Shown: piece after piece, positions 5,432-52,775 of the stretch
Numbering within the stretch: position 1 is the stretch's first letter
Layout: each line of letters opens with the position of its first letter
Position numbers and translations under genes: made by a program
Assembly (NCBI RefSeq): GCF_003342675.1
Contig: NZ_CP031148.1
Location: forward strand, 2,294,001 to 2,358,000
DNA length: 64,000 bases
Direction: 5' to 3'
Origin: Haloplanus rubicundus
GTDB lineage: Archaea > Halobacteriota > Halobacteria > Halobacteriales > Haloferacaceae
Notes under the pieces: model-generated
Told to the model about the DNA's origin: nothing
The model's database searches: none
The model's input: the letters and a program-made list of their open reading frames with translations, nothing else

Positions 5432-5438
5432 ACTATAC
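5432..5438 (+). promoter_or_regulatory. TATA-like box of the OsmC gene
   Basis: ACTATAC lies about 28 bases before the ATG at 5463, the spacing expected for a leaderless haloarchaeal promoter. It supports the start at 5463 over an upstream in-frame ATG at 5331. Confidence 0.4.
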
Positions 5439-5462
5439 TGCATTCAACGGAGACACACTCGT

Positions 5463-5876
5463 ATGGGAGATTCCAAACGAACCCACTACGAAGTCAGCGC
5501 GTCGCGTGTCAGTCCGCACCGGTCCCGAGTGACGACCGAGGACGGGGAGTTCGTCGTCGGACACGACGTGAATCCCGTCGAGTATCTCCTCGGTTCCGTC
5601 CTGGGCTGTCTCAACTCGACCGGAACGATGGTCGCCCGCGACATGGATATCGACATCGTATCACTCGAGGCGACGGTCGAGGGGGACGTGAACTACGCGA
5701 CGTATCTGGGCAAAGAGTCCGAGGACCGTCCGGGGCTGCAAGGACTGGACGTCTCCCTCTCGGTCGAGACGGAGGGCGACGCAGACCTCGACGCGTGGCT
5801 GTCGGCCGTCGAAGAGCGGTGTCCGGTCACCGACAACGTCGGACACGAGACCGGAGTTAGCGTCACGCTCGATTGA
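5463..5876 (+). CDS. OsmC/Ohr-family protein
   Basis: 137 aa. OsmC-family proteins are thiol peroxidases that reduce organic hydroperoxides with a reactive cysteine pair. Both expected cysteines are present: Cys49 in LGSVLGCLN and Cys120 in EERCPVTDN. The central KxxxDRPGLQGLDVSLSVETEGD region matches the family. Start chosen at 5463 because conserved sequence begins at GDSKRTHYEV and a TATA-like box precedes it. The substrate is unknown. It stands alone between menC and a micro-ORF. Confidence 0.82.
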   Translation: MGDSKRTHYEVSASRVSPHRSRVTTEDGEFVVGHDVNPVEYLLGSVLGCLNSTGTMVARDMDIDIVSLEATVEGDVNYATYLGKESEDRPGLQGLDVSLSVETEGDADLDAWLSAVEERCPVTDNVGHETGVSVTLD

Positions 5877-5938
5877 ACTGAGAGAGCTGTACGTGGCCGG
5901 ATGGAGTGAGTCGACTCCGCTTTCGGGGCTGCCCGTGA

Positions 5939-5959
5939 CGAATACGCGCCCTGTATTCG
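5939..5959 (+). terminator. Stem-loop after the OsmC gene
   Basis: CGAATAC and GTATTCG form a perfect 7-bp stem with a 7-nt loop, about 63 nt after the OsmC stop. There is no clear U-tract, so this could be a 3-prime RNA structure rather than a terminator. Confidence 0.3.
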
Positions 5960-6066
5960 CCACGACTCCCGAGACGGGTCACCAGTTGACGATTCAACAA
6001 GGCGGCTGATCCCTACGCAGATCGGACGACCGTCGGAGCTATACGAATCGCCCCCCTAGCACCGCT

Positions 6067-6168
6067 ATGTCGACTGGGCGGATGCTCTACGTGCTCGCGC
6101 TGTTCGCCGTCCTCGTGTTCTCGGCCGGCTTCGTCGTCATCTGGGCGCTGTCGTACGGGCCGCTCTAG
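6067..6168 (+). CDS. 33-aa single-span membrane microprotein
   Basis: Short ORF of 33 aa: an N-terminal MSTGRML, one clear transmembrane helix (about residues 6-28), and the end ALSYGPL. A TATA-like TATACGA at 6040-6046 sits about 24 bases before the ATG, consistent with a leaderless transcript. Its TAG stop overlaps the TAG stop of the convergent gene through a shared CTAG at 6165-6168. No family recognised. Codon use and the promoter make it plausible as a real gene. Confidence 0.55.
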   Translation: MSTGRMLYVLALFAVLVFSAGFVVIWALSYGPL

Positions 6169-7010
6169 TCCCCTCCGTCCGCACCGTGAGAGGCGCCCTC
6201 CTGCCGATCGGCCTGGAGCCGTCGGATCGTCGCCGCGGCGTTGCTCGCGTCGTAGCCGAAGTAGACGCCGTCGGCGTACGCCGCCGCGACTTCGGTCGCA
6301 TGGACGAGGGCGTCGATGTCCACCTCGACGGCGTAAAGTTCGATCCCCAGTCGAACGTCGGCATCGGCCAACCGGCTCTCGAACCCCTTGGCGATGGTCT
6401 CCAGCCAGTAGGTCGTTCCGTACTCGGTGTCGTAGATGGGGACGACGAACTCCTCGACCATCGGGGCGAGCGCCTCGATATCGACGCCGCTCCGCGTCCG
6501 GAGGTGGCCGGGGTAGGGGTCGGGGTAGACGGTCAGATACAGGTCGCCGGGCACCCGGTCGCGCACGTCGCGCACGAAGTCGGTGACGACCGACGCGCGC
6601 CAGTCCTCGCGGTCCGCGAACTCGCTCTCGGCGAAGCGGCGGTCACAGCGCTCGCAGCGACAGTAGCCGTCGCGGGGGAAGCCCACGTCGTCGAGGCGGA
6701 GGGCCGCCCGTTCGGCGACGCAGTCGTCGACGATCTCCAAGAGTCCCTCGCGATACCGCTCGTGGGTCGGACAGACGTACGACCAGTCGAAGTAGGGGCG
6801 CTCCCGCGTCGCGGGGCGGCCCTCGGCGTCGACGGCGGCGAGGCTCGGGTCGTCGCCGACGGCGGCGTTGTCGCCGAACGCGGACACCATGTTGACGCCC
6901 GTCGAGAGCGGCGCGGCGGCCCGGCCGGTCACGTCTTTCACCTCGTAGAAGCCGACGTCGAACGCCGACCACTCCAGTTCCTCGGCGTTGCGCGTGACGA
7001 CGCCGTACAT
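6165..7010 (-). CDS. Conserved hypothetical protein, possible glycosidase-like TIM barrel
   Basis: 281 aa, soluble. Alternating hydrophobic strands and acidic segments (RLDDVGFP around 105-112, YLTVYPDPYPGH, EEFVVPIYDTEYGTTYW, LGIELYAVEVD) look like a (beta/alpha)8 barrel with carboxylates at strand ends, as in glycoside-hydrolase-like proteins. A small Cys cluster (Cys80, Cys117, Cys119, Cys122) could bind a metal, as in GH families with a Cys-rich loop next to the active site. No enzyme class can be named. The convergent micro-ORF shares its stop. Confidence 0.65.
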   Translation of the reverse strand: MYGVVTRNAEELEWSAFDVGFYEVKDVTGRAAAPLSTGVNMVSAFGDNAAVGDDPSLAAVDAEGRPATRERPYFDWSYVCPTHERYREGLLEIVDDCVAERAALRLDDVGFPRDGYCRCERCDRRFAESEFADREDWRASVVTDFVRDVRDRVPGDLYLTVYPDPYPGHLRTRSGVDIEALAPMVEEFVVPIYDTEYGTTYWLETIAKGFESRLADADVRLGIELYAVEVDIDALVHATEVAAAYADGVYFGYDASNAAATIRRLQADRQEGASHGADGGD

Positions 7011-7136
7011 ACCCGTCGGTAGGCGCGTGTGGGTGTAAGTGGTTCGGCTGCGTCGGGCAGGGGCGTGGCTCGCCGCGTTACGATGGCGAAAGAATCGGGA
7101 TTCGGAGGGCGACCGCGCCCCGCGGACGGGACTCGG

Positions 7137-7241
7137 TTACTCCTCGACGTCGACTTCGACCGGTTCCTTGTCGCCGGACATGACGACGTAGCCGATTGCG
7201 ATCAGTGCGAGCACCAGGATGAACTTCGTCTTCCCTGACAT
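7137..7241 (-). CDS. 34-aa membrane microprotein
   Basis: 34 aa with the layout MSGKTK, a hydrophobic helix (residues 7-21), then an acidic tail ending KEPVEVDVEE. It is a single-span protein with an acidic C-terminal tail. It begins 21 bp after the stop of pyrI on the same strand, and a GCTTTGTG-like box about 26 bases upstream could be its own promoter. No family recognised. The clean start-helix-acidic-tail layout supports a real gene. Confidence 0.5.
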   Translation of the reverse strand: MSGKTKFILVLALIAIGYVVMSGDKEPVEVDVEE

Positions 7242-7262
7242 ACCCCTTCGTTGGTCCACCGG

Positions 7263-7748
7263 TCACAAAGCGGTTTCGCCCGATCCGCGGGCGTCGATGT
7301 GTTCGGCCACGTCGCCCTCGCGGATGATGGTGTCACAGTACGCACACCTGACGCCGTCTCCGAGCACCTCGAACTCCGTTCGGACGGGTTCGTCGGCGTT
7401 CGTGATGCAGTTGTGGTTGGGGCAGACGAGGATGCCCCGGACGGTGTCCGTCTGCTCCACGCGATTCTTCTCGACCACGTCGAAGTCGCGGATGATGTTG
7501 ATCGTCGCCTCCGGGGCGATGAGGGAGAGGACGTCCACCTCGGACTGGCTGAGTTCGCGCCCCTCCACCTTCACCACGTCCTTGTATCCCACCTTGTCGC
7601 TGGGGACGTTCATCCCGATGCTGACGCTCTCGCCCCCGCTGCCGTCGATGCCGAGGATGGCGAGGACGTTGAGCGCCTGGCCGGCGGTGACGTGGTCGAT
7701 GACGGTACCGTCGCGAATCTTGCTGACGCGGAGTTCCTTGTCGGTCAT
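7263..7748 (-). CDS. pyrI: Aspartate carbamoyltransferase regulatory subunit
   Basis: 161 aa. PyrI is the allosteric, nucleotide-binding subunit of aspartate carbamoyltransferase. The N-terminal allosteric domain begins [17 protein letters not shown], and the C-terminal zinc domain has four cysteines, Cys109, Cys114, Cys135 and Cys138 (CPNHNC and CAYC). The ATG at 7748 overlaps the pyrB stop by 4 bp (ATGA), so the subunits are translationally coupled. A longer open frame continues upstream to 8525, but that part is pyrB read in another frame. Confidence 0.95.
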
Positions 7749-8659
7749 TGCTCGCCTCCGAGCAGTCGGTCGAGCAGGGCCATCCGAACCGGGACGCCGT
7801 TGTGGGCCTGCTCGAAGTACTTCGCGCGCGTCGTCTCGTCCACCTCGGGCGCGATTTCGTCGACGCGCGGGAGCGGATGCATCACGGTCAGGTCGTCGGC
7901 TGCGCCCGCGAGGGTCGCGTTGTCGATGCGGTACTCGCCGGCGACTTCGCGGTACTCCCGCTCCTCCGGGAAGCGTTCCCGCTGGATGCGGGTGACGTAG
8001 AGCACGTCGAGGTCGGGAAGCACCGCGTCCAGATCCGTGTGTTCGCGCACCTGCGCTCCCGCCTCGTGCAGGTCGTAGCGAACGTTCCGGGGCAGGCGCA
8101 GGCTCTCCGGGCTGATGAAGTGTTGGCGCACGTCGAAGTTGGTGAGCGCGTGGGCCAGCGAGTGGACCGTCCGGCCGTACTTCAGATCGCCCATGATGCC
8201 GACCGTGATGTCGTCCAACCCCGCGTTCTCGCGGATGGTGTAGAGATCGAGTAGCGTCTGACTCGGATGCTGCCCGGCGCCGTCGCCGGCGTTGACGAGG
8301 GGCACGTCCACGAACTCGGAGGCGAGTTTCGCGGACCCCTCGCTGGGGTGGCGGAGGACCATCGCGTCCGCGTAGCCCTCGATCACCCGCACCGTGTCCG
8401 CGAGGCTCTCGCCTTTCTTGACCGACGATGATTCGACCGATCCCATATCGATCGTCTCGCCGCCCAGGCGTTTCATCGCCGACTCGAAACTCATCTTCGT
8501 CCGCGTACTCGGTTCGAAGAAACACAGCGCGAGGACGCGCCCGTCGTGGCGGTCACGGACGAACTCGGGGTCGGCGTCGACCGCCGCCGCGTGGTCGAGC
8601 ACCGCCTCGATGTCGTCCCGTGAGAGGTGGGCCGCACTGATGAGGTGGTCCTGCAACAT
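7745..8659 (-). CDS. pyrB: Aspartate carbamoyltransferase catalytic subunit
   Basis: 304 aa. Makes N-carbamoyl-L-aspartate from carbamoyl phosphate and aspartate, the committed step of pyrimidine synthesis. The carbamoyl-phosphate loop STRT (residues 51-54, in [14 protein letters not shown]) and [12 protein letters not shown] are intact, as are the 80s-loop SSSVKKGES and the C-terminal [10 protein letters not shown]. It is the first gene of a pyrB-pyrI operon with a 4-bp overlap. Confidence 0.97.
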
Positions 8660-8704
8660 TACGTGTGTGAGCCACCCGTGGCGTCTTGAATCCCTCGGGA
8701 CCGA

Positions 8705-9961
8705 TTAGGGCCAGTTCCCGCCCGCGTCGTCGAACGCCCTCGCCACCCGTTCGATGGCGACGACGTAGGCCGCCGTCCGGAAGTTCGGCACGTCGTACGC
8801 CTCGAACGTCTCGACGAGGCGGTCGAACGCCTCGGTGACGATCCGTTCGAGTTCGTCGTTGACGCGCTCCTCGGTCCACGAGAAGCGCTGGCGGTTCTGC
8901 ACCCACTCGAAGTACGAGACGGTGACCCCGCCAGCGTTGGCGAGGATGTCCGGGAAGACGTAGACGTCGCGGTCGGTGAGCACGTCGTCGGCGTTGGGCG
9001 TCAGCGGGCCGTTGGCCGCCTCGACGATCACGTCGGCCCGCACGTCGCGCGCGATGTCCGCGGTGACCGCGTTCTCCAGCGCCGCGGGCACCAGCAGATC
9101 CACGTCGGCCGTCAGGAGTTCCTCGTTGCTCCATTCCTCGTCGGCGCCCTCGTAGCCGGTGACCGACCCCGTCTCGCGTTTGTGGTCTTTCACGGCCGTC
9201 ACGTCGAGGCCGTCGGCGGCGTAGACGGCGCCGCCCGAGTCGCTGACCACGACGACCGTCGCACCCTGCTCGGCCAACAGCCGCGCCGCGACCGACCCGG
9301 CGTTGCCGAAGCCCTGGACGGCGACCGTCGCGCCCTCGATGCCGCGACCGAGGTAGTCGAACGCCTCGCGGGCGGTGAGCATCACGGAGCGGCCGGTCGC
9401 CTCGACGCGGCCGGCGCTCCCGCCCGAGGTCGGTGCCTTCCCCGTGACGACGCCGGGTTCGGTCGTCCGTTCGAGCGTCTCGTAGGTGTCCTTGATCCAG
9501 TTCATCTCCCGCTGACCCGTGTTCACGTCGGGCGCGGGGATGTCGCGATCCTCGCCGACGAGCGGTCGGAGTTCGACGGCGAACGAGCGCGTGATCCGTT
9601 CGAGTTCGCTCTCGGAGTAGTTCCGGGGGTCGAACGCGATGCCACCTTTCGCGCCGCCGTAGGGGATATCGACCACCGCACACTTGTACACCATCCACCC
9701 GGAGAGCGCCTTCACTTCGTCGCGGGTGACGTTCGGGTGATAGCGGATGCCACCCTTGTACGGCCCGCGGTCGCCGTTGAACTGTGAGCGGTAGGCCCGA
9801 AACTGCTCGACCGAGCCGTCGTCCATGTCGACCGAGAGCGTCGTCGACAACACGCGCTCGGGGTGTTTGAGCCGCTCGATCACGTCGCCGTCCACGTCGG
9901 CGTAGGCGGCCGCGTCGTCGATCTGTTCCTGGAGGCTCTCGAACGGGTTGATGTCCGCCAT
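8705..9961 (-). CDS. gdhA: Glutamate dehydrogenase
   Basis: 418 aa, hexameric-type Glu/Leu/Phe/Val dehydrogenase interconverting glutamate with 2-oxoglutarate and ammonium. Active-site lysines lie in [11 protein letters not shown] (Lys69) and YGGAKGGI (Lys105). The Rossmann domain carries VQGFGNAGS, and [12 protein letters not shown] is typical of the family. Haloarchaea usually carry several paralogues that differ in cofactor, so NAD or NADP preference cannot be told here. It is probably monocistronic. Confidence 0.94.
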
Positions 9962-10013
9962 TTCAAAACGGGTTCGCCCCAGAGGGATACAGACTTTTCG
10001 ACACCGGTCGCCC

Positions 10014-10847
10014 TCAGCCGTCGTCCGGGACTCGCGCCAGGATGCGTTCCGCCCGCGCGATCAGCGGCGCGTCGATCATCTCGCCGTCCACCTCGAAGAC
10101 GCCCCGTTCCTCTCGGTCGGCCTCGTCCCGCGCCGCGAGCACCCGTTTCGCCCACACCACCGCCTCGGGGTCGGGCGCGAGGGCGTCGTGGACGACCCCG
10201 ATCTGATCGGGGTGGACAGCCATCTTCCCGTCGTAGCCGAGCGTCGCCGCGAACCGGGTCTCCTCCCGGAGGCCCTCGTGGTCGTCGAGATCCGTAAACA
10301 CGGTGTCCACGGCGTCGATGCCCGCCGCCCGCGCCGTCAGTACGACGCGTTCTCGGGCGTAGAGCACTTCCGTCCCCCCGGCAGTTCGGGTGGCGCCGAG
10401 GTCGGCCGCGAGGTCCTCCGCACCGAAACAGCAGGCGTCGACGGCCGTGTGTGCCGCCACCTCGCGGGCATCGAGGACGCCGGTCGCCGTCTCGATCAGG
10501 GCGAGGATCGGGACGGACAGGTCGCGGGCGTCGAGGGCGTCGGCGGCGCGTGGAACGGCCTCCGCGTCGGCTTTCGGCACCATCACCGCGTCGAGACGCT
10601 CGGCACCGGCGAGTGCATCGAGGTCGGTCGCGGCGTCGGCGATCCGGACCGCCACTTCGACCTCGGCGGCGGGGTCGAAGTCGGGATCCGAGAGCAGGTC
10701 GGCGACGGCTGCCCGTGCGTCGGCTTTTCGAGCGGGTGCCACGGCGTCTTCGAGGTCGAAGACGACCGTATCCGCGCCGGTCGTCGGTGCCTTGCGACAC
10801 ATCTCGGGGCGGTCGCCCGGCGAGAACAGGACGGTTCGGCGGACCAT
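10014..10847 (-). CDS. HpcH/HpaI aldolase (CitE-like CoA lyase)
   Basis: 277 aa TIM-barrel C-C lyase of the citrate lyase beta / malyl-CoA lyase / citramalyl-CoA lyase group. Family signatures: [10 protein letters not shown] at the N-terminus, [22 protein letters not shown], and [12 protein letters not shown] with the metal-binding acidic residues. The C-terminal KMAVHPDQI is typical. No citrate lyase alpha or gamma genes lie nearby, which argues against an ATP-independent citrate lyase. A malyl- or citramalyl-CoA lyase role is more likely, but the substrate is undetermined. Confidence 0.8.
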
Positions 10848-10877
10848 GGTGGGCGGAGGGGTGCCCGAGACAAGAAA

Positions 10878-11267
10878 CTACAGGGCGAGGCCGACGGCGA
10901 CGACGTTCACGACGGAGGCAACGGCCCAGGGGAGCGCGAGGCCGGCGGGGACGAGGCCGCGGTAGTCCGCGGGCATCACGACCCACCCAATGACGGCGAC
11001 GGCGACGGCGCCACCCTTCAGGATGGCGAGGGCGGGGACGATCCCCACGTCGGCGATGAGGCCGGCCGCGACGGGGTTGACCTCGGTCAGGCCGAGACGG
11101 ATGCCGTAGACGGTGAGGGCGCCGTCGGCGACGAGGGCCGTCATTGCGACGATCCAGAGCACCGAGGCGTGGGTCGTCGTCCCCGTCGCGAGGGCGTCGA
11201 GGCGAGTCCCGCCGAGGGTGGGCCACGTCGTCTCCGTCGATTGGGGCCTAGCCGTATCGGTCGACAT
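10878..11267 (-). CDS. DUF5658-like membrane protein
   Basis: 130 aa. A Ser/Thr-rich N-terminus of about 33 residues is followed by about four membrane helices with the pattern ALVADGALTVYGIRLGLTEVNPVAAGLI. The helix-D-x3-T...E-x-NP arrangement is characteristic of small DUF5658-type archaeal/bacterial membrane proteins, from memory. The start at 11267 is preferred over one at 11471 because the extra 68 residues look non-coding and would run across a large inverted repeat. The stop is 30 bp before the downstream lyase gene. Function unknown. Confidence 0.65.
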   Translation of the reverse strand: MSTDTARPQSTETTWPTLGGTRLDALATGTTTHASVLWIVAMTALVADGALTVYGIRLGLTEVNPVAAGLIADVGIVPALAILKGGAVAVAVIGWVVMPADYRGLVPAGLALPWAVASVVNVVAVGLAL

Positions 11268-11406
11268 GGACGAACGGTTGGCGGCTATCCCCGTGAGTAT
11301 ACGGCGCGTACGGCGGGTAAACGAGTCGTTTATCGGGCCGATATGGGTCGTTGAACTCGGCGAGCGCCGTGACGACTCACCGCCCCGCCGCTCCGTCTCG
11401 TACGGG

Positions 11407-11474
11407 TTATTGTGAGTCGGTACCGGTGGGTCGCCGGACTGTCCTAGCGACCCACCGGTGAACAGTGACAATAA
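11407..11474 (-). repeat. Nested symmetric inverted repeat after fbp
   Basis: Inner arms ACCGGTGGGTCGC (11422-11434) and GCGACCCACCGGT (11447-11459) are perfect over 13 bp with a 12-nt loop. Outer arms TTATTGT (11407-11413) and ACAATAA (11468-11474) are perfect over 7 bp, each separated from the inner arm by exactly 8 nt. The element begins 6 nt after the fbp stop (minus strand), so it would form a large 3-prime hairpin in the fba-fbp mRNA. It resembles the element at 56732-56811 in layout. Confidence 0.75.
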
Positions 11475-11480
11475 TGCGTC

Positions 11481-12323
11481 TCAGTCGAGCGCGGCTTCCA
11501 GCCGGTCGATCAGCGCCTCGTTGCCGAGATACACCGGCGTCCGCTGGTGGAGGCTAGTGGGATCGACGTCGAGCACCGATCCCGTGCCGTCCGAACTCCG
11601 GCCGCCGGCGCACTCGATCACGTAGCCGACGGGGTTACACTCGAACTGGAGGCGGAGTTTGCCCTCGGGCGCCGACTGCAGGGCGGGGTAGGCGAACACG
11701 CCGCCGTAGGTGAGCACTTGGTTCACGTCGCCGATCATCGCGCCGCCGTAGCGGAGTTTGAGTTCCGACTCGATCTCCTCGACGTAGCCGGCGACGTCGG
11801 CGGGCCAGTCCGGGACGCGCCCGCCGAAGCCGTACACCGTCGGGTCCGCTGGGAGGGTCACGTCCGCGTTCAGGACCGTCGACTCGCCGTCGTCGATCAG
11901 GTACTCCGTGACGGTTCCCTCGCGGGCGAACGCCATCGTGGTGATGGGGCCGTAGAGGACGTAGCCCGCGGCGACCAGGTCGTGCCCGCTCGCGGGGAGT
12001 TCGGCGTCGTAGACGCCGACGATGGTCCCCATGACGTTGTTCGGCTGCAGGTTCGACGAGCCGTCGAGGGGGTCGACGGCGACGGCGCAGCCCTCGCCCG
12101 TGTCGACGACGCCCTCGCGTTCCTCGCTGGCGTAGGCACCGACGCCGTCGATGCGTCCGAGGCGCTCCTCGAGCAACTCGTCGGCGTACTCGTCGGCCGC
12201 CAGTCGTCGCTCGCCGGAGGGGTTCTCGGTGCCCGCCGTCTCCCGACGGCCGGGAAGCCCCGACCGAATCTCGGGGGCGGCGGCGGCGACGGCCTCGCGA
12301 ATCGCCGCGACGGTGTCCGTCAT
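11481..12323 (-). CDS. fbp: Fructose-1,6-bisphosphatase, class I type
   Basis: 280 aa, sugar phosphatase of the FBPase/inositol monophosphatase fold, removing the 1-phosphate of fructose 1,6-bisphosphate in gluconeogenesis. The metal-binding motif DPLDGSSN is intact, followed by [13 protein letters not shown], with SEEREG upstream as the first carboxylate cluster. The C-terminal [19 protein letters not shown] is typical of class I FBPase. The ATG overlaps the aldolase stop by one base (TGATG), so the two enzymes form a translationally coupled operon. Confidence 0.93.
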
Positions 12324-13135
12324 CAGTCGCTCGCTTCGAGGCCCGCGCTCGCAGCCAGTGCCTCGTCGACCGACGCGTCGTCGAAGATGACGGCTTCGAG
12401 GCCGTCGAGGATGGCTTCGGGGTTCTCGCGCTGGAAGACGTTGCGCCCGACCGCCAGCCCCGAGGCGCCGGCGTCCATCGCCTCGCGCACCGTCGAGAGG
12501 AACGCCTCGTCGCTGGTCTTCGACCCGCCGCTCATGACCACCTTCATGTCGCCCGCGCTCTGGACGGCCCAGTTCATCGCGTCCGGGGAGCCGGGATACT
12601 TCACCTTCGCGATGTCGGCGCCGAGTTCGAGGCCGAGACGGGAGGCGTAGGCGATGGTGTCCGGGCTGGTGTCGTCTTTGAGTCCCTGCCCACGTGGGTA
12701 GGACCACATCACGACGCCCATATCGTGTTCGCGGGCTTTCTCCTGTGCCCGCCGGAACTCCTCGGCCATCTCGACTTCGTGGTTGGAGCCGCCGTAGAAC
12801 GTGAAGCCGATGGCGTCCGCGCCGACTTCGGCCGCGTAGTCGACCGACCAGTTGACCGCGGAGTCGGGTTCGCCCATCCAGAGGTTGCTCGTGCCGTTGA
12901 GCTTCGCCAGCAGGGTCACGTCGTCCTCGTAGGAGGGGTAGTACGCCTCGGCGACGCCCTTCTGGACCGCCACGGCGGTCACCGCGTCGTGGGTTCCCAC
13001 GTCGAACACCGTCGACGGGTCGGTCGTCGCCGGCACCGGCTCGAAGTCGACCGGGCCGTGTTCGAGCCCGTGGTCGTACGCGAGTATCAGCGCCTTGCCG
13101 TCACGGGTGATCGCGTCGTCAGCACCGGGAATCAT
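12323..13135 (-). CDS. fba: Fructose-bisphosphate aldolase, archaeal class I (DhnA type)
   Basis: 270 aa TIM-barrel Schiff-base aldolase of the archaeal DhnA family, cleaving or forming fructose 1,6-bisphosphate. The Schiff-base lysine is in [11 protein letters not shown] (Lys177 or Lys179). The N-terminal [11 protein letters not shown] and the phosphate-binding SGGSKTSDE and [10 protein letters not shown] are conserved. The start at 13135 fits family length and a TATA box about 30 bases upstream. It is coupled to fbp, which makes a bidirectional glycolysis/gluconeogenesis pair. Confidence 0.93.
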
Positions 13136-13158
13136 GTGTGTAGACCTACCGGCGAAAT

Positions 13159-13177
13159 ACCACATAAAGCGTGTGGT
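13159..13177 (-). promoter_or_regulatory. fba promoter with palindrome over the TATA box
   Basis: ACCACA (13159-13164) and TGTGGT (13172-13177) form a perfect 6-bp inverted repeat, 7-nt spacer. Read on the minus strand the spacer supplies CTTTATG, the likely TATA box, about 30 bases before the fba ATG. A repressor bound here would block TBP/TFB. The TACT-N7/8-GAGTA pattern of TrmB is not seen. Confidence 0.4.
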
Positions 13178-13256
13178 CGGCGGTGGTGAGTCGTCGCACC
13201 GACTCGCCGCTACGAAAAACGGGAGGCTGATGACGACCGAAGACGGACGCACGACC

Positions 13257-14075
13257 ATGGCTCGGACGGAACTACGTATCGCGGCCGTCGCCCTCCTCCT
13301 CCTCGTCGCGGGGTGTGCCGCGCTCGGGCCGGGCGGTTCCGGGACGCAGACGCCGACCGAAACGGCGGCATCGACCGCAACGGGGACGCCGACGCCGACC
13401 GAAACGGCGGCACCGACCGCAACGGGGACGCCGACCGACGCCGACCGCGCGCGGTATCCCGACGGCTGGTCGGCGGCGGGGATCGACGACCCCGACGCGG
13501 CGCTCGCCGCCCACTATCGAGCGACCCTCGCCGGCCCGTCGGTGACGGTGACCTACCGGTCGCGGATACGCGAGTCGACGAACGACCGCGGGGCGAACAC
13601 CACGCTCGCCATGCGGGTCGACACGGCGTCCGAGCGGCTGTACGCCGACCTCGACGGCTCGGACACCCATCGCGAGGCCTTCTTCGCCGACGGCACCCTC
13701 ACCCAGTGGAGCGTCGAGAACGAAACGGTCGCCGACCGGTCGGGAACGACGTTCTCGCGGGCCGCCCGGTCGATAGATCGGTCGGTCCTCTACTCGCATC
13801 TCCTGCTCTACACGCTGGAGCGAACCGGTAGCGTCGAGCGGTCGGGGACGACGGCGCTCGTCTACAACGTGACCGGCGTCCCCGACAGCACCGTCTCGAA
13901 CACGTACGGGACAGCCACCGGCGCGTCCGGACGGGTCGTCGTCGGCCGCGACGGCCGCGTCTTCGACGTCGAGACGACCGTGACCTACACCGGTGGGACG
14001 GTCACGTACCACTACGGCCACGCGGCAGTCGGCGAGACGGCGGTCGAGCGGCCGGGGTGGATGGACGAGGCGTGA
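13257..14075 (+). CDS. Secreted lipoprotein, unknown function
   Basis: 272 aa from the start chosen here. The signal peptide RIAAVALLLLVAGC carries a lipobox whose Cys would be lipidated. It is followed by a low-complexity linker with an imperfect tandem repeat of TPTETAA(S/P)TATGTP, then a globular beta-rich domain. An upstream ATG at 13230 (nine codons longer, with GGGAGG a few bases before it) is an alternative start. This type of haloarchaeal lipoprotein with a domain comparable to LolA/LppX-like beta folds is common, but no function can be given. Confidence 0.72.
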   Translation: MARTELRIAAVALLLLVAGCAALGPGGSGTQTPTETAASTATGTPTPTETAAPTATGTPTDADRARYPDGWSAAGIDDPDAALAAHYRATLAGPSVTVTYRSRIRESTNDRGANTTLAMRVDTASERLYADLDGSDTHREAFFADGTLTQWSVENETVADRSGTTFSRAARSIDRSVLYSHLLLYTLERTGSVERSGTTALVYNVTGVPDSTVSNTYGTATGASGRVVVGRDGRVFDVETTVTYTGGTVTYHYGHAAVGETAVERPGWMDEA

Positions 14076-14112
14076 ACGGCGACGGCTCGGGACGGTCGAG
14101 CCCTCGCCTCCG

Positions 14113-45883: not shown

Positions 45884-47059
45884 CTACGACTCGTCGGCGC
45901 CGCCGTCGCCCTCGCTGTCGGCGTCGGGGGGTCGCCCCGTCGACGCCCCGTCCCGCTCGTCCGCCACGACGGCCTCGCCCCTCGGCGGCGTGTACGCGTA
46001 CAGCAGCCCCTCGTGGGGGACGTAGAAGGCCGCTCCGTCCGGCCGCTCGAACACGCGGGCGTCGACGTCGATGGCGGTGTCGACCAGCCCCGAAAGCGAG
46101 TCGACGTCGACCCGCGGGCGGTCGAGGACGGCCGACGGGAGCCGGGCGGTCGTGATCCAGTCGTCGAACTCCTCGCGCGTCGACTCGAAGTCCAGACGGT
46201 CGCGTTCGGCCACCGAGACGGCCAACTGACCGTCGTATCGACCGTACGTGAGGCCTGCGAGGCCGACGACGCCGATCAGCAACGCGACCGGACCGCCGAC
46301 CCGCCACGCCGGGCCGTACGTCCGCTCGCGGGTGATTCGCTCGGTCGTCGAGCCGGTGACCGCCTGTCCACCCGTCTCGCCGGGCGCGTACGTCGATCCG
46401 TCGACACCGACGGGGAGACGGTACGTCGCGCTCCGCTCGACCGGCTGGCCGTTGACCTCGCCGTCGAGAGCCACCGTGTTGATCACCGTGATCCGGGTCG
46501 AACCCGGCGTCCCGCCGAGCCGCTCGGTGACGTTCGCCGCCCGGTTGGCGACCCGACTGACGTTCCGGGAGAACGTCGTCCGGACCGGCTCGCCGGGCGT
46601 CACGCCGCTCGCGTCGGTCGTGCCCAGCGGCTCCTCGATCCGCCAGTACTCGACGGTCGATCCGTCCTCACCCTCCTCGACCGCCCGGACGACGAGCGTC
46701 TGCTCGACGGCGACGTCGACGCTCCCACCGCCGCTGGCCGCGTACTCGAAGGCGAAGGTGCCGTCGAGCCGCGGGCTGACGGTCAGGAAGTACGCCGGCC
46801 GGTCCGAGAGTTCGGTTCCCGTCGCGTAGAGCGGGTTCGGCTCGGTCACCGTCGCCGCCGTGGTGTAGCTGCCGTTGCCCTCCCAGCTCGACACCTGTCG
46901 TTCCTCGACGGTCGTTCCCGGCGCCGCGTAGGCGGTGTACGCGACGTATCCACCCGCGCCGGCGACGACGACGGCGACCAGTGCGACGGCCCAGAACCAC
47001 TCGTCGAGGATCGCGCGTACGCGCACCCCCAACAAATCTCGATCGCCCCCCAGCGACAT
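45884..47059 (-). CDS. DUF5305-family membrane protein
   Basis: 391 aa. Topology: short cytoplasmic N-terminus, helix at about 24-44, a large extracytoplasmic beta-rich domain (45-265), second helix (about 275-292), and a cytoplasmic C-terminal domain ending in a charged tail. This matches, from memory, DUF5305 proteins. These commonly lie next to archaeal signal peptidase and DUF1102 genes, as here (immediately downstream of the peptidase). A role in the export or assembly of the surface proteins is inferred from context. Confidence 0.75.
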   Translation of the reverse strand: MSLGGDRDLLGVRVRAILDEWFWAVALVAVVVAGAGGYVAYTAYAAPGTTVEERQVSSWEGNGSYTTAATVTEPNPLYATGTELSDRPAYFLTVSPRLDGTFAFEYAASGGGSVDVAVEQTLVVRAVEEGEDGSTVEYWRIEEPLGTTDASGVTPGEPVRTTFSRNVSRVANRAANVTERLGGTPGSTRITVINTVALDGEVNGQPVERSATYRLPVGVDGSTYAPGETGGQAVTGSTTERITRERTYGPAWRVGGPVALLIGVVGLAGLTYGRYDGQLAVSVAERDRLDFESTREEFDDWITTARLPSAVLDRPRVDVDSLSGLVDTAIDVDARVFERPDGAAFYVPHEGLLYAYTPPRGEAVVADERDGASTGRPPDADSEGDGGADES

Positions 47060-47081
47060 GGCCGGTTCGTTTCCGGCGGGG

Positions 47082-47092
47082 ACTTAAAAACG
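47082..47092 (-). promoter_or_regulatory. Promoter of the DUF5305 gene
   Basis: Minus-strand CGTTTTTAAGT lies about 28 bases before the ATG at 47059, inside the 51-bp gap after the signal peptidase gene. The DUF5305 gene may therefore be transcribed separately as well as by read-through. Confidence 0.4.
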
Positions 47093-47110
47093 TTGAGCAA
47101 GCGACAACGG

Positions 47111-48262
47111 TCAGCCGAACCGGTTCGCCAGCCGGCGGAGCGTCGACGGACCGTCCCGAGAGTGGGAGCGGACGCGACCGGTGCCGACCACCGCCATCCC
47201 GACGAGATACATCGTCCCCCCGAGCAGCGCGTCGATGACGACGATGGGGAGCCACGGGTGGACACGGTAGAGTGCGACGACGACGGGCTCCGGGAGGACG
47301 GCGAGATACCGGTACTCGGTGAGGAAGTAGCGGTAGTATCCCGTCTCGGGCGGCGCCGTGAGCGTCAGATCGACCCGCCCCTCACCCCGACTCCCGACGT
47401 AGACGTGCTCCGAGTCGACGGCGACGCCGTCGCTGGAGTCGAAGTAGACGTGGACCGGCACTAGCCCGGCGTTGGGGACGGCGTACGGGACCGTCGACGA
47501 CTCACCTTGCCGGATGGTCGTCGGCTGCTCCGAGTCGAACTCCGCGCTGACGACGCCGAACTCCTGTGTGCCCGCAGGGACGACCATCGCCGCCGTCGCG
47601 GTGGAGACGACCAGCAGGGCGAGTGCGACCATCACGAGCCGCGTCGAGACGCCGTCGTCGCGGCTCCGGCTTCGCTCCCGACCCTTGCTCCGGTCGTCGC
47701 CAAGCACGAGGTCGAGGACGTACGCGAGCGCCGATCCGGCGAGGAGGAGGTAGGTCAACCCCTGCGGTCCGAGCAGCGAGCGGGTGCCGAGCGTGGCCGC
47801 GATCCACCGCTGGGCGCCCGAAATCACGTCCTGGACGCCCACGACGACCGTCCCGAGGTTCGGAATTACGACGACGGTGCCCCCCACTTGCAGCGCCTTC
47901 GCGACGATCTGGGCCTCCTTCACCGGGGGTTCGCCGCCGTCCTGATCGGTGAAGGGGTTGGCGTCGCCCCTGGTTACGTACCCCCGCTCCGTCTCGCCGA
48001 CGACGCGGTGGGTGGTGAGACCGCCGCCCTGAATCTCCTCGGCGCGGAACGTGATCACGTCGCCTTCCTCGACCTCCCCAGCGACCGCCGACGGCACGGC
48101 GACGAAGCCATCGCCGGGCTCCATCGTCGGCGCCATGCTCCCCGTCTCGACGTAGCTGAGGAGGACGGGCTGGCCGAGAAACTGGCCGGCGAGGAGCGAG
48201 ACGACCACGAGGACGAGGAAGAGTTCGAGTCCCAGTGTGAGGAGGCGGCGGGCCGACGGCAT
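47111..48262 (-). CDS. Signal peptidase I, archaeal Ser/His (SipW/Sec11-like) type
   Basis: 383 aa. N-terminal helix, then the catalytic Ser42 in ETGSMAPTMEPGDG. The base is a His (His85 in THRVVGE) rather than Lys, with Asp100 or Asp106 near (RGDANPFTDQDG): the Ser-His-Asp arrangement of archaeal, eukaryotic and SipW-type enzymes. A second hydrophobic half (residues about 160-383) includes more helices and a beta-rich domain, far longer than a housekeeping Sec11. Its place among DUF1102 genes suggests dedicated processing of those proteins. Confidence 0.9.
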   Translation of the reverse strand: MPSARRLLTLGLELFLVLVVVSLLAGQFLGQPVLLSYVETGSMAPTMEPGDGFVAVPSAVAGEVEEGDVITFRAEEIQGGGLTTHRVVGETERGYVTRGDANPFTDQDGGEPPVKEAQIVAKALQVGGTVVVIPNLGTVVVGVQDVISGAQRWIAATLGTRSLLGPQGLTYLLLAGSALAYVLDLVLGDDRSKGRERSRSRDDGVSTRLVMVALALLVVSTATAAMVVPAGTQEFGVVSAEFDSEQPTTIRQGESSTVPYAVPNAGLVPVHVYFDSSDGVAVDSEHVYVGSRGEGRVDLTLTAPPETGYYRYFLTEYRYLAVLPEPVVVALYRVHPWLPIVVIDALLGGTMYLVGMAVVGTGRVRSHSRDGPSTLRRLANRFG

Positions 48263-48325
48263 CTATCCACACGAACGCGAGCCGGGGCAAAAAACCTCGG
48301 TCGGCAGGGTAGCGCTCGGCGGGAG

Positions 48326-49852
48326 CTACTCCCGCAACCGACGGACGAGCGCCAGCACCACCACCACCCCGACGAGGGCGACGAGCCACAGCGTCTCGGT
48401 CGGCGCCCCACCAGCCGGTTCGACGATCGGCGGTTCCGCGTCGGCCGGCGTCCCGGCCGGCGAGTCGTCAGTCGACGGGGTGGCGGGCGGCGACGCCGCG
48501 GCGCCGCCCGGCGGTCCCTCGGCGTCGCGTCCGGTGTTCGTCTCCGGCCTCTCGACGACGAGCCGTCCGGCGTCGGCCGACCCGACCCGAACCGCGTAGG
48601 TGCCCGCATCCGACGGATCGACCCGGAACGACAGCGTCGTCGATTCGCCGGGGTTCAGGTCGACCCGCCGCTCCGCGACCGGGTCGCCGTCGAGAGTCAG
48701 GGCGATGGTCCGTGCCCCGGACGCGTCGCCCGCGTTCGTCACCTCGGCCGTCACGGTCGTTCGCTCGCCGGCCGTGATCGATTCCGACCCGAGGTCCGCG
48801 CTCGTCACCCGCAGGTCGGGCACCGCCGCGGCGACGACGAACGTCGAGAAGCCGGGCGTCTCGGTTTCGAGGAACACCCGCTCGTCGGTCCGGCCGACCA
48901 CCTCGACGCCGCGCTCGGACCACTCGTGCCCATCGTATCGGTAGACTGTCAGGTACTCGGAGGCGTACCCGGCCGCCTCCAGATACGCGCGGTCGACGGC
49001 GAACCGGAGCGTCGCTCGCTCGACCGCCCCCCGACGCTCCACGACGCGGACGGCCCCGAGCGGACGCACGCCCGCGTCCGCAGGGAGCGCGCCCGCCGAA
49101 TCGGGCGGCGTCACGCTCACGTCGAGGTCGAGGTCCCCGCCGTCACTCACGACCGACAGTTCGTCGAGCGTCAGGGCGCCGTCGCCGGCGCGGGCGACGA
49201 CCAGGCGGTCCAAATCGAGCGTGATGGAGCGCCCGGCTGTGGTGTCCCGGAGGGTCAGGACGCGGCTCGTCGGGGTCGGGCTCGTGATTCGGGTCGTCGC
49301 CGGTTCGTCGGGATCGGTCGCGGCGATCCCCGATTCGGGACTGGGCGTCGCCGTATCGGTGCCGGTGTCGGGATCGGCCACCTGCGCGCGGACGGTGAAC
49401 TCGCTCGATTCGGGCGGTTCGGCGCCTTCGGTGTCGACGACGACGCCCACGGCCACCGACTCGTCCGGCGCCAGCGTGACGGCGTCGGCGTGGGCGTCGA
49501 CCGGCGCGCCGTCCGCGAGGAACGTGATCCCCGCGGCGTCGCTCGTGATCCAGACCGTCGCTGCGGCGTCGCCGTCGTAGTGGATGCGGAAGGCGTCCGC
49601 GACGTACGTGCGGGCCTCGGGATTGAGACCGTCGCCAGCGAGGGCGGGGTTCGAGGTCGTGAAATCGAGGGCGAGAGTGCCGGTGTCGGTGATGGTGACG
49701 TAGTCGGCGTTGGCGCTGTTTTCGGTGGTGAGGGTGACGTTGGCGGAGGCGGGGTCGGTCGCCCGTTCCGTCAGTGGTGCTGCGACGGTGGGGAGTGCGA
49801 GCGCTATCGTCGCGAGCGTGAGGGCGACGAGGGCGGTTCGGCGTCGTGACAT
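48326..49852 (-). CDS. Surface protein: DUF1102-like, PGF-pre-PGF and CARDB domains
   Basis: 508 aa. Signal peptide (residues 1-25), an N-terminal domain with GLNPEARTYVADAFRI that parallels GLNPDARTAFHDLFEV in the DUF1102 protein at 50685-51377, a Thr/Pro/Glu-rich linker, a PGF-pre-PGF domain (ERGVEVVGR ... ETPGFSTFVVAA), a CARDB-like domain, a disordered Pro/Thr segment and a C-terminal helix with basic residues. It is membrane-anchored at the cell surface, likely an anchor or minor subunit of the assembly built from the DUF1102 proteins. Confidence 0.75.
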   Translation of the reverse strand: MSRRRTALVALTLATIALALPTVAAPLTERATDPASANVTLTTENSANADYVTITDTGTLALDFTTSNPALAGDGLNPEARTYVADAFRIHYDGDAAATVWITSDAAGITFLADGAPVDAHADAVTLAPDESVAVGVVVDTEGAEPPESSEFTVRAQVADPDTGTDTATPSPESGIAATDPDEPATTRITSPTPTSRVLTLRDTTAGRSITLDLDRLVVARAGDGALTLDELSVVSDGGDLDLDVSVTPPDSAGALPADAGVRPLGAVRVVERRGAVERATLRFAVDRAYLEAAGYASEYLTVYRYDGHEWSERGVEVVGRTDERVFLETETPGFSTFVVAAAVPDLRVTSADLGSESITAGERTTVTAEVTNAGDASGARTIALTLDGDPVAERRVDLNPGESTTLSFRVDPSDAGTYAVRVGSADAGRLVVERPETNTGRDAEGPPGGAAASPPATPSTDDSPAGTPADAEPPIVEPAGGAPTETLWLVALVGVVVVLALVRRLRE

Positions 49853-49920
49853 GGTTCGGTTGGGTGCGTGGGGGACCACTCGCACCCGCGGGTTCGTGTT
49901 GGGCACGCGGCTACACGTAT

Positions 49921-49940
49921 TTTGTATTAACGTGATTGAA
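49921..49940 (-). promoter_or_regulatory. Shared upstream element, copy 2
   Basis: TTTGTATTAACGTGATTGAA on the plus strand matches 16 of 20 positions of copy 1 at 51431-51450. It lies 68 nt before the ATG of the PGF-pre-PGF gene. Read on the minus strand TTAATACAAA could act as a TATA box. Confidence 0.5.
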
Positions 49941-49943
49941 GCA

Positions 49944-49956
49944 GCCCGCAGCGGGC
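49944..49956 (-). terminator. GC-rich palindrome between surface genes
   Basis: GCCCGC-A-GCGGGC is a perfect 13-bp palindrome between the DUF1102 gene (stop at 50070) and the next promoter. It could form a 3-prime hairpin; no T-run follows, so a terminator role is weak. Confidence 0.3.
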
Positions 49957-50069
49957 AGAGGCTGCGCAGTCAAACCGGTGGCCGAGCCGACCGCAATCGT
50001 CGAGCTGTCGTCCGAAGGTGGCTGGACGCGTTGTGCTTCGAAGGCGCGACACACCCCGTGGGAATCGGT

Positions 50070-50654
50070 CTACTCCAGTATTCCAGAGGGGCCACGCGGC
50101 GCATCAGACGCTTGTTCGGTTATCGGATCTGCACGGATCCGCAACGCGAGTTGATACTGCTGTACGTTGGCGTCACCCGTTTCGATGAAGAGGCCTGCGT
50201 TGAACGACTCACCAGGGTAGAGTTCGGTTGCGTCCGCCTCGGAGGTGAGCAACTGGTTCCGGTCGCTATCGACCAGTCCGAGGCGTTCGAATCCAGACGG
50301 AACGTTTCGGCCGCTACCAAACACCTCGACTGGATCGGACCCCTGATTGGAGATCACGAGTAGATCCCCGAACGTGTATCGGGAGTTCGGCTGCACACCG
50401 TTTCCCTCGGGCGTGTCACCGATTCCCGCCCGAGTTTTGATACCGGGAATATAGAACTCGAGTTGACCGCCACTAGTAGTCGTCCTGCTGAGGTCCGAGG
50501 ACGGATCGAGGCTGAGGTACGCATCGTCGTCGTCCTCCACATCGACAGAGACGGTCCGCTCAGCACGCGCACTTGTGAACGCCCCCGTACCAGTGACTGC
50601 ACCGGCAGCAAGGGAGAGGCTTCCGAGCCCGAAGAGGAACCGACGTCGTCTCAT
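50070..50654 (-). CDS. DUF1102 secreted protein A
   Basis: 194 aa. Signal peptide with Tat-like MRRRRFLFGLGSLSLAAGAV and the SipW-type stretch GTGAFTSARA. Cleavage after Ala31 would expose ERTVSVDVEDDDDAYLSL. The mature protein is a small acidic beta-sandwich with GVQPNSRYTFGDLLVISNQGSDPV, reminiscent of the TasA/camelysin pattern of PGD then FxVxNxG. It starts 30 bp after the related gene and is co-transcribed. No Cys. It is a candidate fibre or surface-layer subunit. Confidence 0.8.
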   Translation of the reverse strand: MRRRRFLFGLGSLSLAAGAVTGTGAFTSARAERTVSVDVEDDDDAYLSLDPSSDLSRTTTSGGQLEFYIPGIKTRAGIGDTPEGNGVQPNSRYTFGDLLVISNQGSDPVEVFGSGRNVPSGFERLGLVDSDRNQLLTSEADATELYPGESFNAGLFIETGDANVQQYQLALRIRADPITEQASDAPRGPSGILE

Positions 50655-50684
50655 ATATTAGGGGGCGAGGATTAGCAGTGACGT

Positions 50685-51377
50685 TTAAGTCGATCCGGTG
50701 ATGTCACGTTCGCCGCCGGTTTCGACGGCGAAGGCGTACAGTCCCACGTCGCTCTCGGAGAGCGTGCTCGGATCGAAGCTGTCACCGGTTTCGATCGAGA
50801 GGTCGACGCTCGCCGTCTGTCCGGGCGTGAGGACCTTTTCTTGACCACTGGTACGCCAGACGCGGCCACCGGCGTCGAGCTTGTTCGCCGAGGGATTCCC
50901 GATGCCGGTCGAATTCGCGTTCCCTTCCGAATCCGTTTCGTCGTAGGCGTACACGACGTTGATGCCAGCGTAGTCCTGAAGCAGATCCGGAAGACTGCCC
51001 GAGGAGGGAGCGCTCGTTCCCGCCGGAGGATTGTCGATACCAACCTGGTTCTTCGCCACGCCGACGGAGAAGGCAACATCGTTCTGACCGTTGTTCTGGA
51101 CCTCGAACAGATCGTGGAACGCGGTCCGTGCGTCCGGATTCAGACCCGTGCTGTTGTTGTTGTAACCCGATGCAAAGTCGATCTGCAGCTGGCCGTTTGC
51201 ATCTTGACTAACCCGTTCGTCGGTCCCACTGAGTGCGAGGAACGCGTTGCTGTCAGTAACGACGTTGACAGAAACGGTCCGCTCGGCCGTCACACTCGTA
51301 AACGCACCAGTACCAGTCACGGCCGCCGCGCCAGCGGCCAGCGATCCCACACCAGCGATGAACTTTCGCCGTTGCAT
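50685..51377 (-). CDS. DUF1102 secreted protein B
   Basis: 230 aa. Signal peptide MQRRKFIAGVGSLAAGAAAV then GTGAFTSVTA, with cleavage after Ala31 exposing ERTVSVNVVTDSNAFLAL. Core motif GLNPDARTAFHDLFEVQNNGQNDVAFSV. Larger than protein A by a loop around residues 120-150. Base composition is lower in GC than flanking genes. It shares an upstream 20-bp element with the PGF-pre-PGF gene. A start at 51377 is chosen so that the RR motif is at the N-terminus. Confidence 0.82.
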   Translation of the reverse strand: MQRRKFIAGVGSLAAGAAAVTGTGAFTSVTAERTVSVNVVTDSNAFLALSGTDERVSQDANGQLQIDFASGYNNNSTGLNPDARTAFHDLFEVQNNGQNDVAFSVGVAKNQVGIDNPPAGTSAPSSGSLPDLLQDYAGINVVYAYDETDSEGNANSTGIGNPSANKLDAGGRVWRTSGQEKVLTPGQTASVDLSIETGDSFDPSTLSESDVGLYAFAVETGGERDITGST

Positions 51378-51657
51378 TGTTGTCCACGTGCCCCGTCCGG
51401 AGCACATCACACCCCTGGACCCCTACCCCGTTTGTAGTAAGCCGATTGAACCGTCTACAACGAGGGGATAGAACCGGTTCAACGACCACGTATCCCGGTT
51501 TCAGGGTGGCGTTGATCCGCCTTCGAACGGTCGTTGATCGGGGCGTTGGCCGGGGCTGAAAGCCAGTCATCGATTTGATAATGATGGTCATTTATGTGCG
51601 AAGGCGTGTTCAGAATCGGCCGACCCGGACGCGTTCGCTGGGGGGGACTCGAACGAC
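51378..51657. promoter_or_regulatory. Divergent control region of the surface cluster
   Basis: This 280-bp region lies between DUF1102 protein B and the HTH regulator. It holds the 20-bp element at 51431-51450, a perfect inverted repeat TTGAACCG (51446-51453) / CGGTTCAA (51475-51482), the palindrome GAACCGGTTC (51471-51480) and TTGTAG (51432-51437) / CTACAA (51455-51460). The nested repeats suggest a compact operator, perhaps for the adjacent regulator. CATTTATG near 51590 may be its TATA box. Confidence 0.45.
51431..51450 (-). promoter_or_regulatory. Shared upstream element, copy 1
   Basis: TTTGTAGTAAGCCGATTGAA on the plus strand, 53 nt before the ATG of DUF1102 protein B. The other copy is 49921-49940. 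On the minus strand the common core is TTCAATC-N3-TTA-N-TACAAA, which could contain a TATA box plus an upstream site. Confidence 0.5.
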
Positions 51658-52194
51658 ATGAGCTTGGCACGAGACGACGTATACGAGGTGTTGAGTAACC
51701 GACGACGGCGGTTCGTCATTCACTACCTGCAGCGGAACGGTCCGCGGGCGGCCCTGGGGACGCTCGCGGAGCACGTCGCCGCCTGGGAGGACGGCATCGA
51801 CGTCGAGGCCGTGGGGTCGGCCGCGCGCAAGAACGTCTACACGTCGCTGCAGCAGTTCCACCTGCCGAAGATGGAGAAACTGGATCTGGTGATCTTCCAC
51901 CAGCGCGACGGCGAGGTGGAACTCACCGACGTCGCCGCCGACGTCGACCTCTACCTGGAAGTCGTGGAGGGCCACGACGTGCCCTGGAGCCTCTACTACC
52001 TCGGAGTCGGGGCGCTCGCCGGGGGCGTGATGCTCGGCCACGCGCTCGACCTGCCGCTGCTCGTGGGGCTGGGCGACGTGGACCTGGCGGTGTTCACCGT
52101 CATCGCCATCGCCACGATGGCGCTGATCCACACCTACTACACCCGCGGGATGCGTCTCGGAACCGACGGGCCGCCACCCGAAGTCGAGCGATGA
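51658..52194 (+). CDS. Membrane-bound winged-HTH regulator (DUF7344-like)
   Basis: 178 aa. The N-terminal HTH (DVYEVLSNRRRRFVIHYLQRNG ... LGTLAEHVAAWEDG, then RKNVYTSLQQFHLPKMEKLDLV) is the haloarchaeal ArsR-like/DUF7344 type. It is followed by two membrane helices (about residues 115-135 and 140-158). It is membrane-anchored and probably senses the envelope. Its stop overlaps the next gene by 4 bp (ATGA), and it is divergent from DUF1102 protein B, so it likely controls the cluster. Confidence 0.78.
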   Translation: MSLARDDVYEVLSNRRRRFVIHYLQRNGPRAALGTLAEHVAAWEDGIDVEAVGSAARKNVYTSLQQFHLPKMEKLDLVIFHQRDGEVELTDVAADVDLYLEVVEGHDVPWSLYYLGVGALAGGVMLGHALDLPLLVGLGDVDLAVFTVIAIATMALIHTYYTRGMRLGTDGPPPEVER

Positions 52195-52775
52195 GCCGGC
52201 GAACCCGCCGCATCGTCGCGCTGGTCGCCCTCTGTATAGCGGCCAGCATGGCGCTCGGCGTCGGGAGCTACAGTTCGGTGTCGGCCGAGCGGAGCGTGAG
52301 CGTGAGCGTCGTTCCGCCGGAGGAGGCGTATCTCGGGTTCGACGAAAATCTCCGGTGTGGCCCCGGTAACAGCGCCGGGGTCGGCAACGGGCAACCGTTC
52401 CTCCACAATCAGTTCGCAGCCGACATCGACGACATCAAGTTGCGGGTCACGGCGCTCGGTGGATACGTCCGCGTCAGAGCGGACGAGTCGCCGAAGGGAG
52501 CGCCCGCCAAACAGCTAACTCCGAACGACCCGACGGCGACCCTCGTCTTCGAGGACACGTACGGGCCGGGAAGCAGCGTCGAACTGGAGATATACGGCCC
52601 GAGCGGCGTCGGAACCAAAGACGGTGCCGACGAACTGCGGATCGAACTCGTCGAAGCGACGGGGCCGAACGTCCGCGTCGCGGGCGCGGACAAGACGTAC
52701 GAGGTGAACTGCCCCGATCAGTATTCGCCGCCGGAAGGTGAGGGGAGTGGCGAGAACGGCGGCGGTCAGGACTGA
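52191..52775 (+). CDS. DUF1102-like secreted protein C
   Basis: 194 aa. Signal peptide (residues 1-32) with the SipW-like GVGSYSSVSA; the mature end ERSVSVSVVPPEEAYLGF matches the other DUF1102 proteins. Two Cys (CGPGNSAG and CPDQYSPP) could bridge the ends. The core is beta-rich (FEDTYGPGSSVELEIYGPSG); the C-terminus is Gly/Glu rich. It is translationally coupled to the HTH regulator, so the regulator and a cargo protein are made together. Confidence 0.75.
   Translation: MSRRTRRIVALVALCIAASMALGVGSYSSVSAERSVSVSVVPPEEAYLGFDENLRCGPGNSAGVGNGQPFLHNQFAADIDDIKLRVTALGGYVRVRADESPKGAPAKQLTPNDPTATLVFEDTYGPGSSVELEIYGPSGVGTKDGADELRIELVEATGPNVRVAGADKTYEVNCPDQYSPPEGEGSGENGGGQD

Follow-up and report, generated by a model that had tools for sequence, protein, structure and literature searches.

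A probable Tat-fimbria-like locus in Haloplanus rubicundus and the extra domain of its signal peptidase

The locus and its genes

A seven-gene locus occupies positions 45884 to 52775 of the 64,000-nucleotide stretch of Haloplanus rubicundus DNA analyzed here (the window; contig NZ_CP031148.1, positions 2,294,001 to 2,358,000), and its genes resemble those of the Tat-fimbriae (tafi; Tat, twin-arginine translocation) of haloarchaea (Galeva et al. 2025, iScience 28:111793, cited in PMC12687288), which were described only in 2025. Genes for a DUF5305 protein, a signal peptidase, a PGF-pre-PGF/CARDB protein, and the pilin-like proteins B and A lie on the minus strand; those for a DUF7344 helix-turn-helix (HTH) protein and the pilin-like protein C lie on the plus strand. 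The parts of the locus, with the evidence for each, are:

45884-47059, minus: DUF5305 membrane protein (Pfam, 7.5e-47), with homologs in true tafi loci
47111-48262, minus: signal peptidase I of the Taf clade, 383 amino acids, with an extra PapD/MSP-like domain (TIGR02228, 2e-16; tree; AlphaFold2 model, pLDDT 84)
47858-48166, minus: S26 catalytic domain of the peptidase, residues 33-135, with Ser42 and His85 (VIA structural comparison; invariant residues)
47303-47572, minus: PapD/MSP/ASH-like immunoglobulin-like (Ig) domain of the peptidase, residues 231-320, predicted to be extracytoplasmic (AlphaFold2, Foldseek, VIA, conservation)
48326-49852, minus: PGF-pre-PGF/CARDB protein with a C-terminal transmembrane (TM) segment, in the TafF position, proposed fiber base (TIGR04213, CARDB); open reading frame (ORF) called at 48326-49906, start at 49852 more likely
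49358-49738, minus: pilin-like N-domain of the PGF-pre-PGF/CARDB protein, residues 57-183, without the donor-strand motif (hhalign)
50070-50654, minus: pilin-like protein B, Tat signal MRRRRFLFG (TafE and TafA matches below cut-off; match to PDB 9p0a)
50685-51377, minus: pilin-like protein A, Tat signal MQRRKFIAG, likely a main subunit (TafE and TafA matches below cut-off; 9p0a); ORF called at 50685-51410, start at 51377 more likely
51258-51302, minus: predicted mature N-terminus and donor strand of A, FTSVTAERTVSVNVV (motif conservation; modeled range of 9p0a)
50535-50579, minus: predicted mature N-terminus and donor strand of B, FTSARAERTVSVDVE (motif conservation; extrapolated from 9p0a)
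51432-51460, no strand: inverted repeat TTGTAG-N17-CTACAA between the A and HTH genes, a possible operator (other Haloplanus; shuffles)
51658-52194, plus: DUF7344 winged-HTH protein with two predicted TM segments, candidate regulator (Pfam, 8.9e-27)
52191-52775, plus: pilin-like protein C with a hydrophobic Sec-like signal, proposed minor or tip subunit (hhalign; signal hydrophobicity)
52269-52313, plus: donor motif of C, YSSVSAERSVSVSVV

The neighbors named in a first-pass annotation (the PGF-pre-PGF/CARDB protein, the DUF5305 protein, and the signal peptidase) are confirmed by family matches; the first of these lies above the TIGR04213 (PGF-pre-PGF) cut-off and matches CARDB at 1.5e-12 (Pfam/NCBIfam). 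The DUF7344 membrane HTH, divergent to the A and B side, may regulate the locus, judging by its position. Variants of the inverted repeat were found in two other Haloplanus genomes only, and about 0.2% of shuffles contain such a repeat.

Pilin-like proteins and a candidate membrane base

Of the 330 ORFs of 60 amino acids or more in the window, A, B, and C are the only ones with the strict form of an N-terminal motif, GxG(A/S)(F/Y)(T/S)S..AER.VSV.V, which none of 20,000 shuffles of these proteins produced. This agrees with the earlier claim that A, B, and C share the end of the signal and the start of the mature protein. Across 212 A/B-type homologs the GxG is kept in 98%, the A in 93%, the F in 89%, and the R at +7 in 87%; these rows had been pre-selected with a looser GxG(A)F motif, which accounts in part for the values of GxG, A, and F and not for that of R (the invariance of R2 in alignment A2 is an effect of trimming rows on R2, the unselected value being 87%). 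A second shared pattern that had been proposed, G(V/L)xPxxR..F..VxNxG, is present in A and B, and only its first half (GLNPEAR..FRIHYDG) in the PGF-pre-PGF/CARDB protein.

The mature N-terminus had been placed at A|ER. In the pilus structure 9p0a ("Structure of Natrinema sp. J7-2 Tafi pilus," released 2025-07-23), 188 modeled residues end at residue 215, so the modeled chain starts at F28 if unbroken; this range implies a mature start at F28, and the cut is therefore more probably at GxG(A/S)|F/Y, with F or Y as the mature N-terminus. In TasA, the donor strand consists of N-terminal residues 28-38 (PMC9674648).

Both A and B have twin-arginine signals, and of 133 A/B-type signals encoded on the peptidase strand in relatives, 123 have an upstream arginine pair. 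The signal of C is more hydrophobic (2.75 versus about 1.7 for A and B), and relatives of C often lack the arginine pair. These signals suggest that A and B would be exported via Tat, probably folded, and C via Sec. The first-pass annotation had set a Tat route against processing by the peptidase of the locus; the signals of A and B do point to that route, although a protein exported via Tat can still be cut by a signal peptidase.

Protein A matches 9p0a with an E-value of 6.7e-16 (residues 12-217 against 3-200), B matches it at 7.7e-8, and a profile search reaches 2e-16. With the Natrinema subunit A shares the signal type, the N-terminal strand, and near-full-length homology; its precursor is 230 rather than 215 amino acids long, and the comparison is one of pilins rather than of loci. 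A literature search found no publication describing 9p0a. In the NCBIfam models for tafi (TafA, NF052520; TafC, NF052521; TafE, NF052522; TafF, NF052523), A matches TafE at 2.4e-20 (73 against a cut-off of 155 bits) and TafA at 1.4e-11 (44.9 against 190 bits), B matches TafE at 1.8e-15 (57.1 bits) and TafA at 2.9e-10 (40.5 bits), both below cut-off, and C reaches 24.3 bits with TafA. The DUF1102 label given earlier fits loosely, with matches in A (1.8e-3), B (0.2), and the PGF-pre-PGF/CARDB protein (2.8e-3) that are all under the Pfam cut-off and no match in C.

The AlphaFold2 model of mature A (pLDDT 70, pTM 0.66) is a beta-sandwich whose best Foldseek matches are 7ueg, the bundling pili of Pyrobaculum calidifontis (8e-4), and 9p0a (1.5e-3); the VIA Z score is 8.1 for both and 5.8 for the Sulfolobus acidocaldarius 0406 filament (7pnb). 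Identity of A to 7ueg and 7pnb is about 8-10%, with no sequence-level match, and the model also matches MSP/ASH folds. The model thus matches 7ueg, a TasA-related pilus, with TasA itself not among the matches listed. The VIA alignment to 9p0a begins at model residue 14 and leaves out the N-terminal strand, as would be expected if that strand were donated in the pilus, although this is not proof. The idea that the new N-terminus acts as a donor strand is upheld to the extent that the subunits have a donor-strand-like N-terminal segment; strand exchange itself would be its predicted role. What identifies A as a probable Tafi-like pilin is its sequence similarity rather than its fold.

Comparison of C with the pilin profile (hhalign) gave a probability of 96.2 and an E-value of 2.5e-9. 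C is thus a distant relative of the pilins in which the donor motif persists, as would suit a minor or tip subunit. The C-terminal Cys174 is invariant among C homologs, many of which have a second cysteine near residue 50-56; a disulfide formed outside the cell is possible.

Part of the PGF-pre-PGF/CARDB protein is homologous to the pilins as well. Alignment of the pilin profile with its family profile (hhalign probability 98.95, E 1e-17) covers pilin columns 17-165 only, and the match, in residues 57-183, starts after the donor segment. The same family profile matches TafF proteins at 1e-11 to 1e-21; the TafF model NF052523 gives no match in the window protein at E up to 1. The N-domain is thus a pilin homolog that may offer an acceptor groove and has no donor strand. 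Such a donor-less domain together with a C-terminal TM segment would suit a membrane base, so the anchoring role first proposed for this protein is plausible; the presence of such a donor-less pilin-like domain in a protein of this family appears to be new.

We consider it very likely that the locus makes a donor-strand fiber of the Tat-fimbria (Tafi-like) kind, and the fiber system would then not be new (Galeva et al. 2025; PDB 9p0a). Several points weigh against this. A, B, and C all fall under the curated TafA, TafE, and TafC cut-offs; confidence in the model of A is modest, and a Z near 8 may, as the VIA documentation warns, be due to chance; 9p0a is known to us by its title, sequence match, and alignment range; and no filament has been seen for this organism. 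Because of the sub-cut-off scores of A, B, and C and the PGF-pre-PGF/CARDB protein in place of TafF, the locus is best described as a Tafi-like variant whose proposed base is of the PGF/CARDB type. The earlier designation as a surface-fiber locus is retained, given the homology of A to 9p0a, the likeness of the subunits to bundling pili, and the dedicated peptidase; the family label that came with it is not.

The signal peptidase and its second domain

At 383 amino acids the peptidase is longer than the housekeeping type (about 290-312), and the residues Ser42 and His85, named in the first-pass annotation, do not vary across 58 relatives. A tree of catalytic regions has three groups, a SipW-type clade (support 100/98), a housekeeping clade (100/99), and a Taf clade (95/94) that joins the window peptidase with known tafi enzymes; it is 35-40% identical to the peptidases of the tafi loci fetched. 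The S26 domain of the model gives VIA Z scores of 11.0 with Streptococcus pyogenes SipA (4n31) and 10.6 with Escherichia coli LepB (3s04).

The tree bears on the family label given at first, by which this would be a true SipW-TasA/camelysin-class biofilm fiber locus with SipW-type processing of TasA-family subunits. The window peptidase does match the SipW model, weakly (3.9e-8; 33 against a cut-off of 190 bits), and the cleavage region GxGA|F resembles that of TasA; both points speak for this alternative. The fold of A also matches bundling pili related to TasA, those of the 7ueg type being called a TasA-like system (PMC9674648). However, the peptidase lies outside the SipW-type clade, and a family model search found no TIGR04088 or Peptidase_M73/camelysin match in A, B, or C, although these models do match proteins encoded elsewhere in this genome, at the locus L042, which serve as a positive control. 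TasA was not among the PDB sequence matches, and the pilins gave a probability of 0.1 against an L042-type profile of only 4 rows; TasA and CalY were likewise not in the fold search of the A model, which does not exclude them. Membership in the SipW-TasA class was rejected on the family models, the positive control, and the tree, and we regard it as highly improbable. The window locus resembles SipW-TasA/TapA (PMC9674648) and L042 in having a dedicated archaeal-type peptidase, small beta-rich exported subunits, and a similar cleavage region; it differs in signal family, peptidase clade, and donor motif, with no detectable sequence homology.

L042 (G000:C2:1906001-1926000, positions 5236-14106) is itself a genuine SipW-class locus, with several twin-arginine signal proteins, a SipW-type peptidase, and a low-complexity protein; its clearest signal ends are of the GLGTTAYFSDQ type, and one protein has a VWA domain.

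Residues 231-320 of the window peptidase form a second beta-sandwich between TM helices (AlphaFold2 model, pLDDT about 94-98 in this region), predicted to face outward like the catalytic domain, as judged by eye from hydrophobicity and basic loops. Foldseek matches it to the PapD-family chaperones CupB2 (2.9e-3) and Caf1M (3.9e-3) and to MSP/ASH folds (down to 3.6e-4), with probabilities near 1. A profile of the domain matched tafi peptidases at 1e-13 to 1e-19 and found no match in the SipW-type or housekeeping peptidases tested; its end strands are the most conserved (mean entropy 0.74 for the first and 0.69 for the last, against 1.3-2.1 for the others). A PapD/MSP-like extracytoplasmic domain on the Taf peptidase clade seems to be new. 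The catalytic domain folds like SipA, and the extra domain may fold like the chaperones, with weak structural scores for the latter; unlike in these proteins, both lie on one membrane chain, and no sequence homology was shown.

The occurrence of the domain in the Taf clade and the conservation of its end strands suggest a cleave-and-cap assembly factor, a single membrane chain in which the S26 domain would cut the pilin and the PapD-like domain would hold it until donor-strand exchange onto a donor-less pilin-like base (the PGF/CARDB protein or TafF); we offer this tentatively and hold it to be possible, though doubtful. We lean slightly toward a plainer view, that residues 231-320 form an Ig domain that serves only as a structural part or membrane spacer and not as a chaperone. 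VIA Z scores to MSP/ASH/PapD-like folds are 6.4-7.3, under 8, the arrangement is a common one that the A model matches too, and the position of the end strands next to the membrane could by itself account for their conservation; restriction to the Taf clade and the concentration of conservation in the first and last strands speak for a more specific role. If the cleave-and-cap proposal is true, one archaeal chain does the jobs that are split in bacteria among signal peptidase, periplasmic chaperone, and usher, and there is a testable answer to how a donor-strand fiber is assembled without an outer membrane or usher.

In the Tafi-like mechanism that we propose, the membrane peptidase would cut at GxG(A/S)|F/Y and so release an N-terminal strand that has an alternating hydrophobic pattern. 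This strand would insert into a neighbor's groove, as in TasA and the archaeal bundling pili, and A and/or B would polymerize, to judge by the homology to 9p0a and the 7ueg fold. The PGF-pre-PGF/CARDB protein would accept the first strand and anchor the fiber, and C, having a donor strand, may be added as a minor or tip subunit. Conceivably, the PapD/MSP-like domain holds each freshly cut subunit until its strand is exchanged.

Distribution and variation of the locus

A relative of the window peptidase is present in 149 of 194 sampled haloarchaeal genomes, and TafE scores above its curated cut-off in only 19 genomes of the same sample; the Tafi-like class probably extends well beyond what is now annotated. 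Pilin-like genes accompany all 57 full-length relatives, DUF5305 genes 55, HTH genes 54, and PGF/CARDB genes 41. Loci with TafA, TafE, or TafF over or near cut-off also hold a DUF7344 HTH gene and a signal peptidase gene, with DUF5305 in most of those fetched. The window locus is syntenic with annotated tafi loci and is like these in its Tat-signal pilins with GxGAF..A(E/D)R.V.V.V, in its DUF7344 and DUF5305 proteins, in a peptidase that belongs to their clade and has the PapD-like domain, and in a pilin-like membrane protein at the TafF position. It is unlike them downstream of the HTH gene, where it has C with its Sec-like signal and the fetched tafi loci have a TafC-like protein.

In a comparison of the window with a close Haloplanus relative, the HTH protein, the peptidase, and HerA are 92-93% identical, whereas the best matches of A and B are 36-49% identical. 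The G+C content at third codon positions is 0.65-0.71 in A and B (50070-51377), against about 0.9 in neighboring genes. The low values and fast divergence of the pilin genes suggest exchange or diversifying change.

The locus of Haloplanus ruber (L086/L113) keeps the HTH, C, PGF-pre-PGF/CARDB, peptidase, and DUF5305 genes and has no A/B-type genes; TafE-family matches lie on another contig of this genome (G080). That the rest of the locus is kept means that its other parts may have a use without A and B, and this, like the lack of any observed fiber, would accord with A and B being surface or S-layer-associated proteins, monomeric or wall-binding, that build no fiber. The homology of A, over nearly its whole length, to the subunit of a solved pilus, the conserved donor-strand-like N-terminus, and the TafE-family genes elsewhere in H. 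ruber argue against such a role, which we think unlikely.

Most relatives have a further gene between those for the PGF-pre-PGF/CARDB protein and the peptidase (L088:9348-10196, L094:8509-9360, and L113 at about 8090-8936), which is not in the window locus. It was considered as a missing pilin and rejected, as it encodes a rhomboid-like membrane protein (Pfam Rhomboid, 4e-4, just below cut-off). The DUF5305 protein and a SipW-type peptidase encoded elsewhere in this genome (L038, G000:C2:1459105-1462542) have a C-terminal domain in common (E 4.5e-13), which suggests a functional link.

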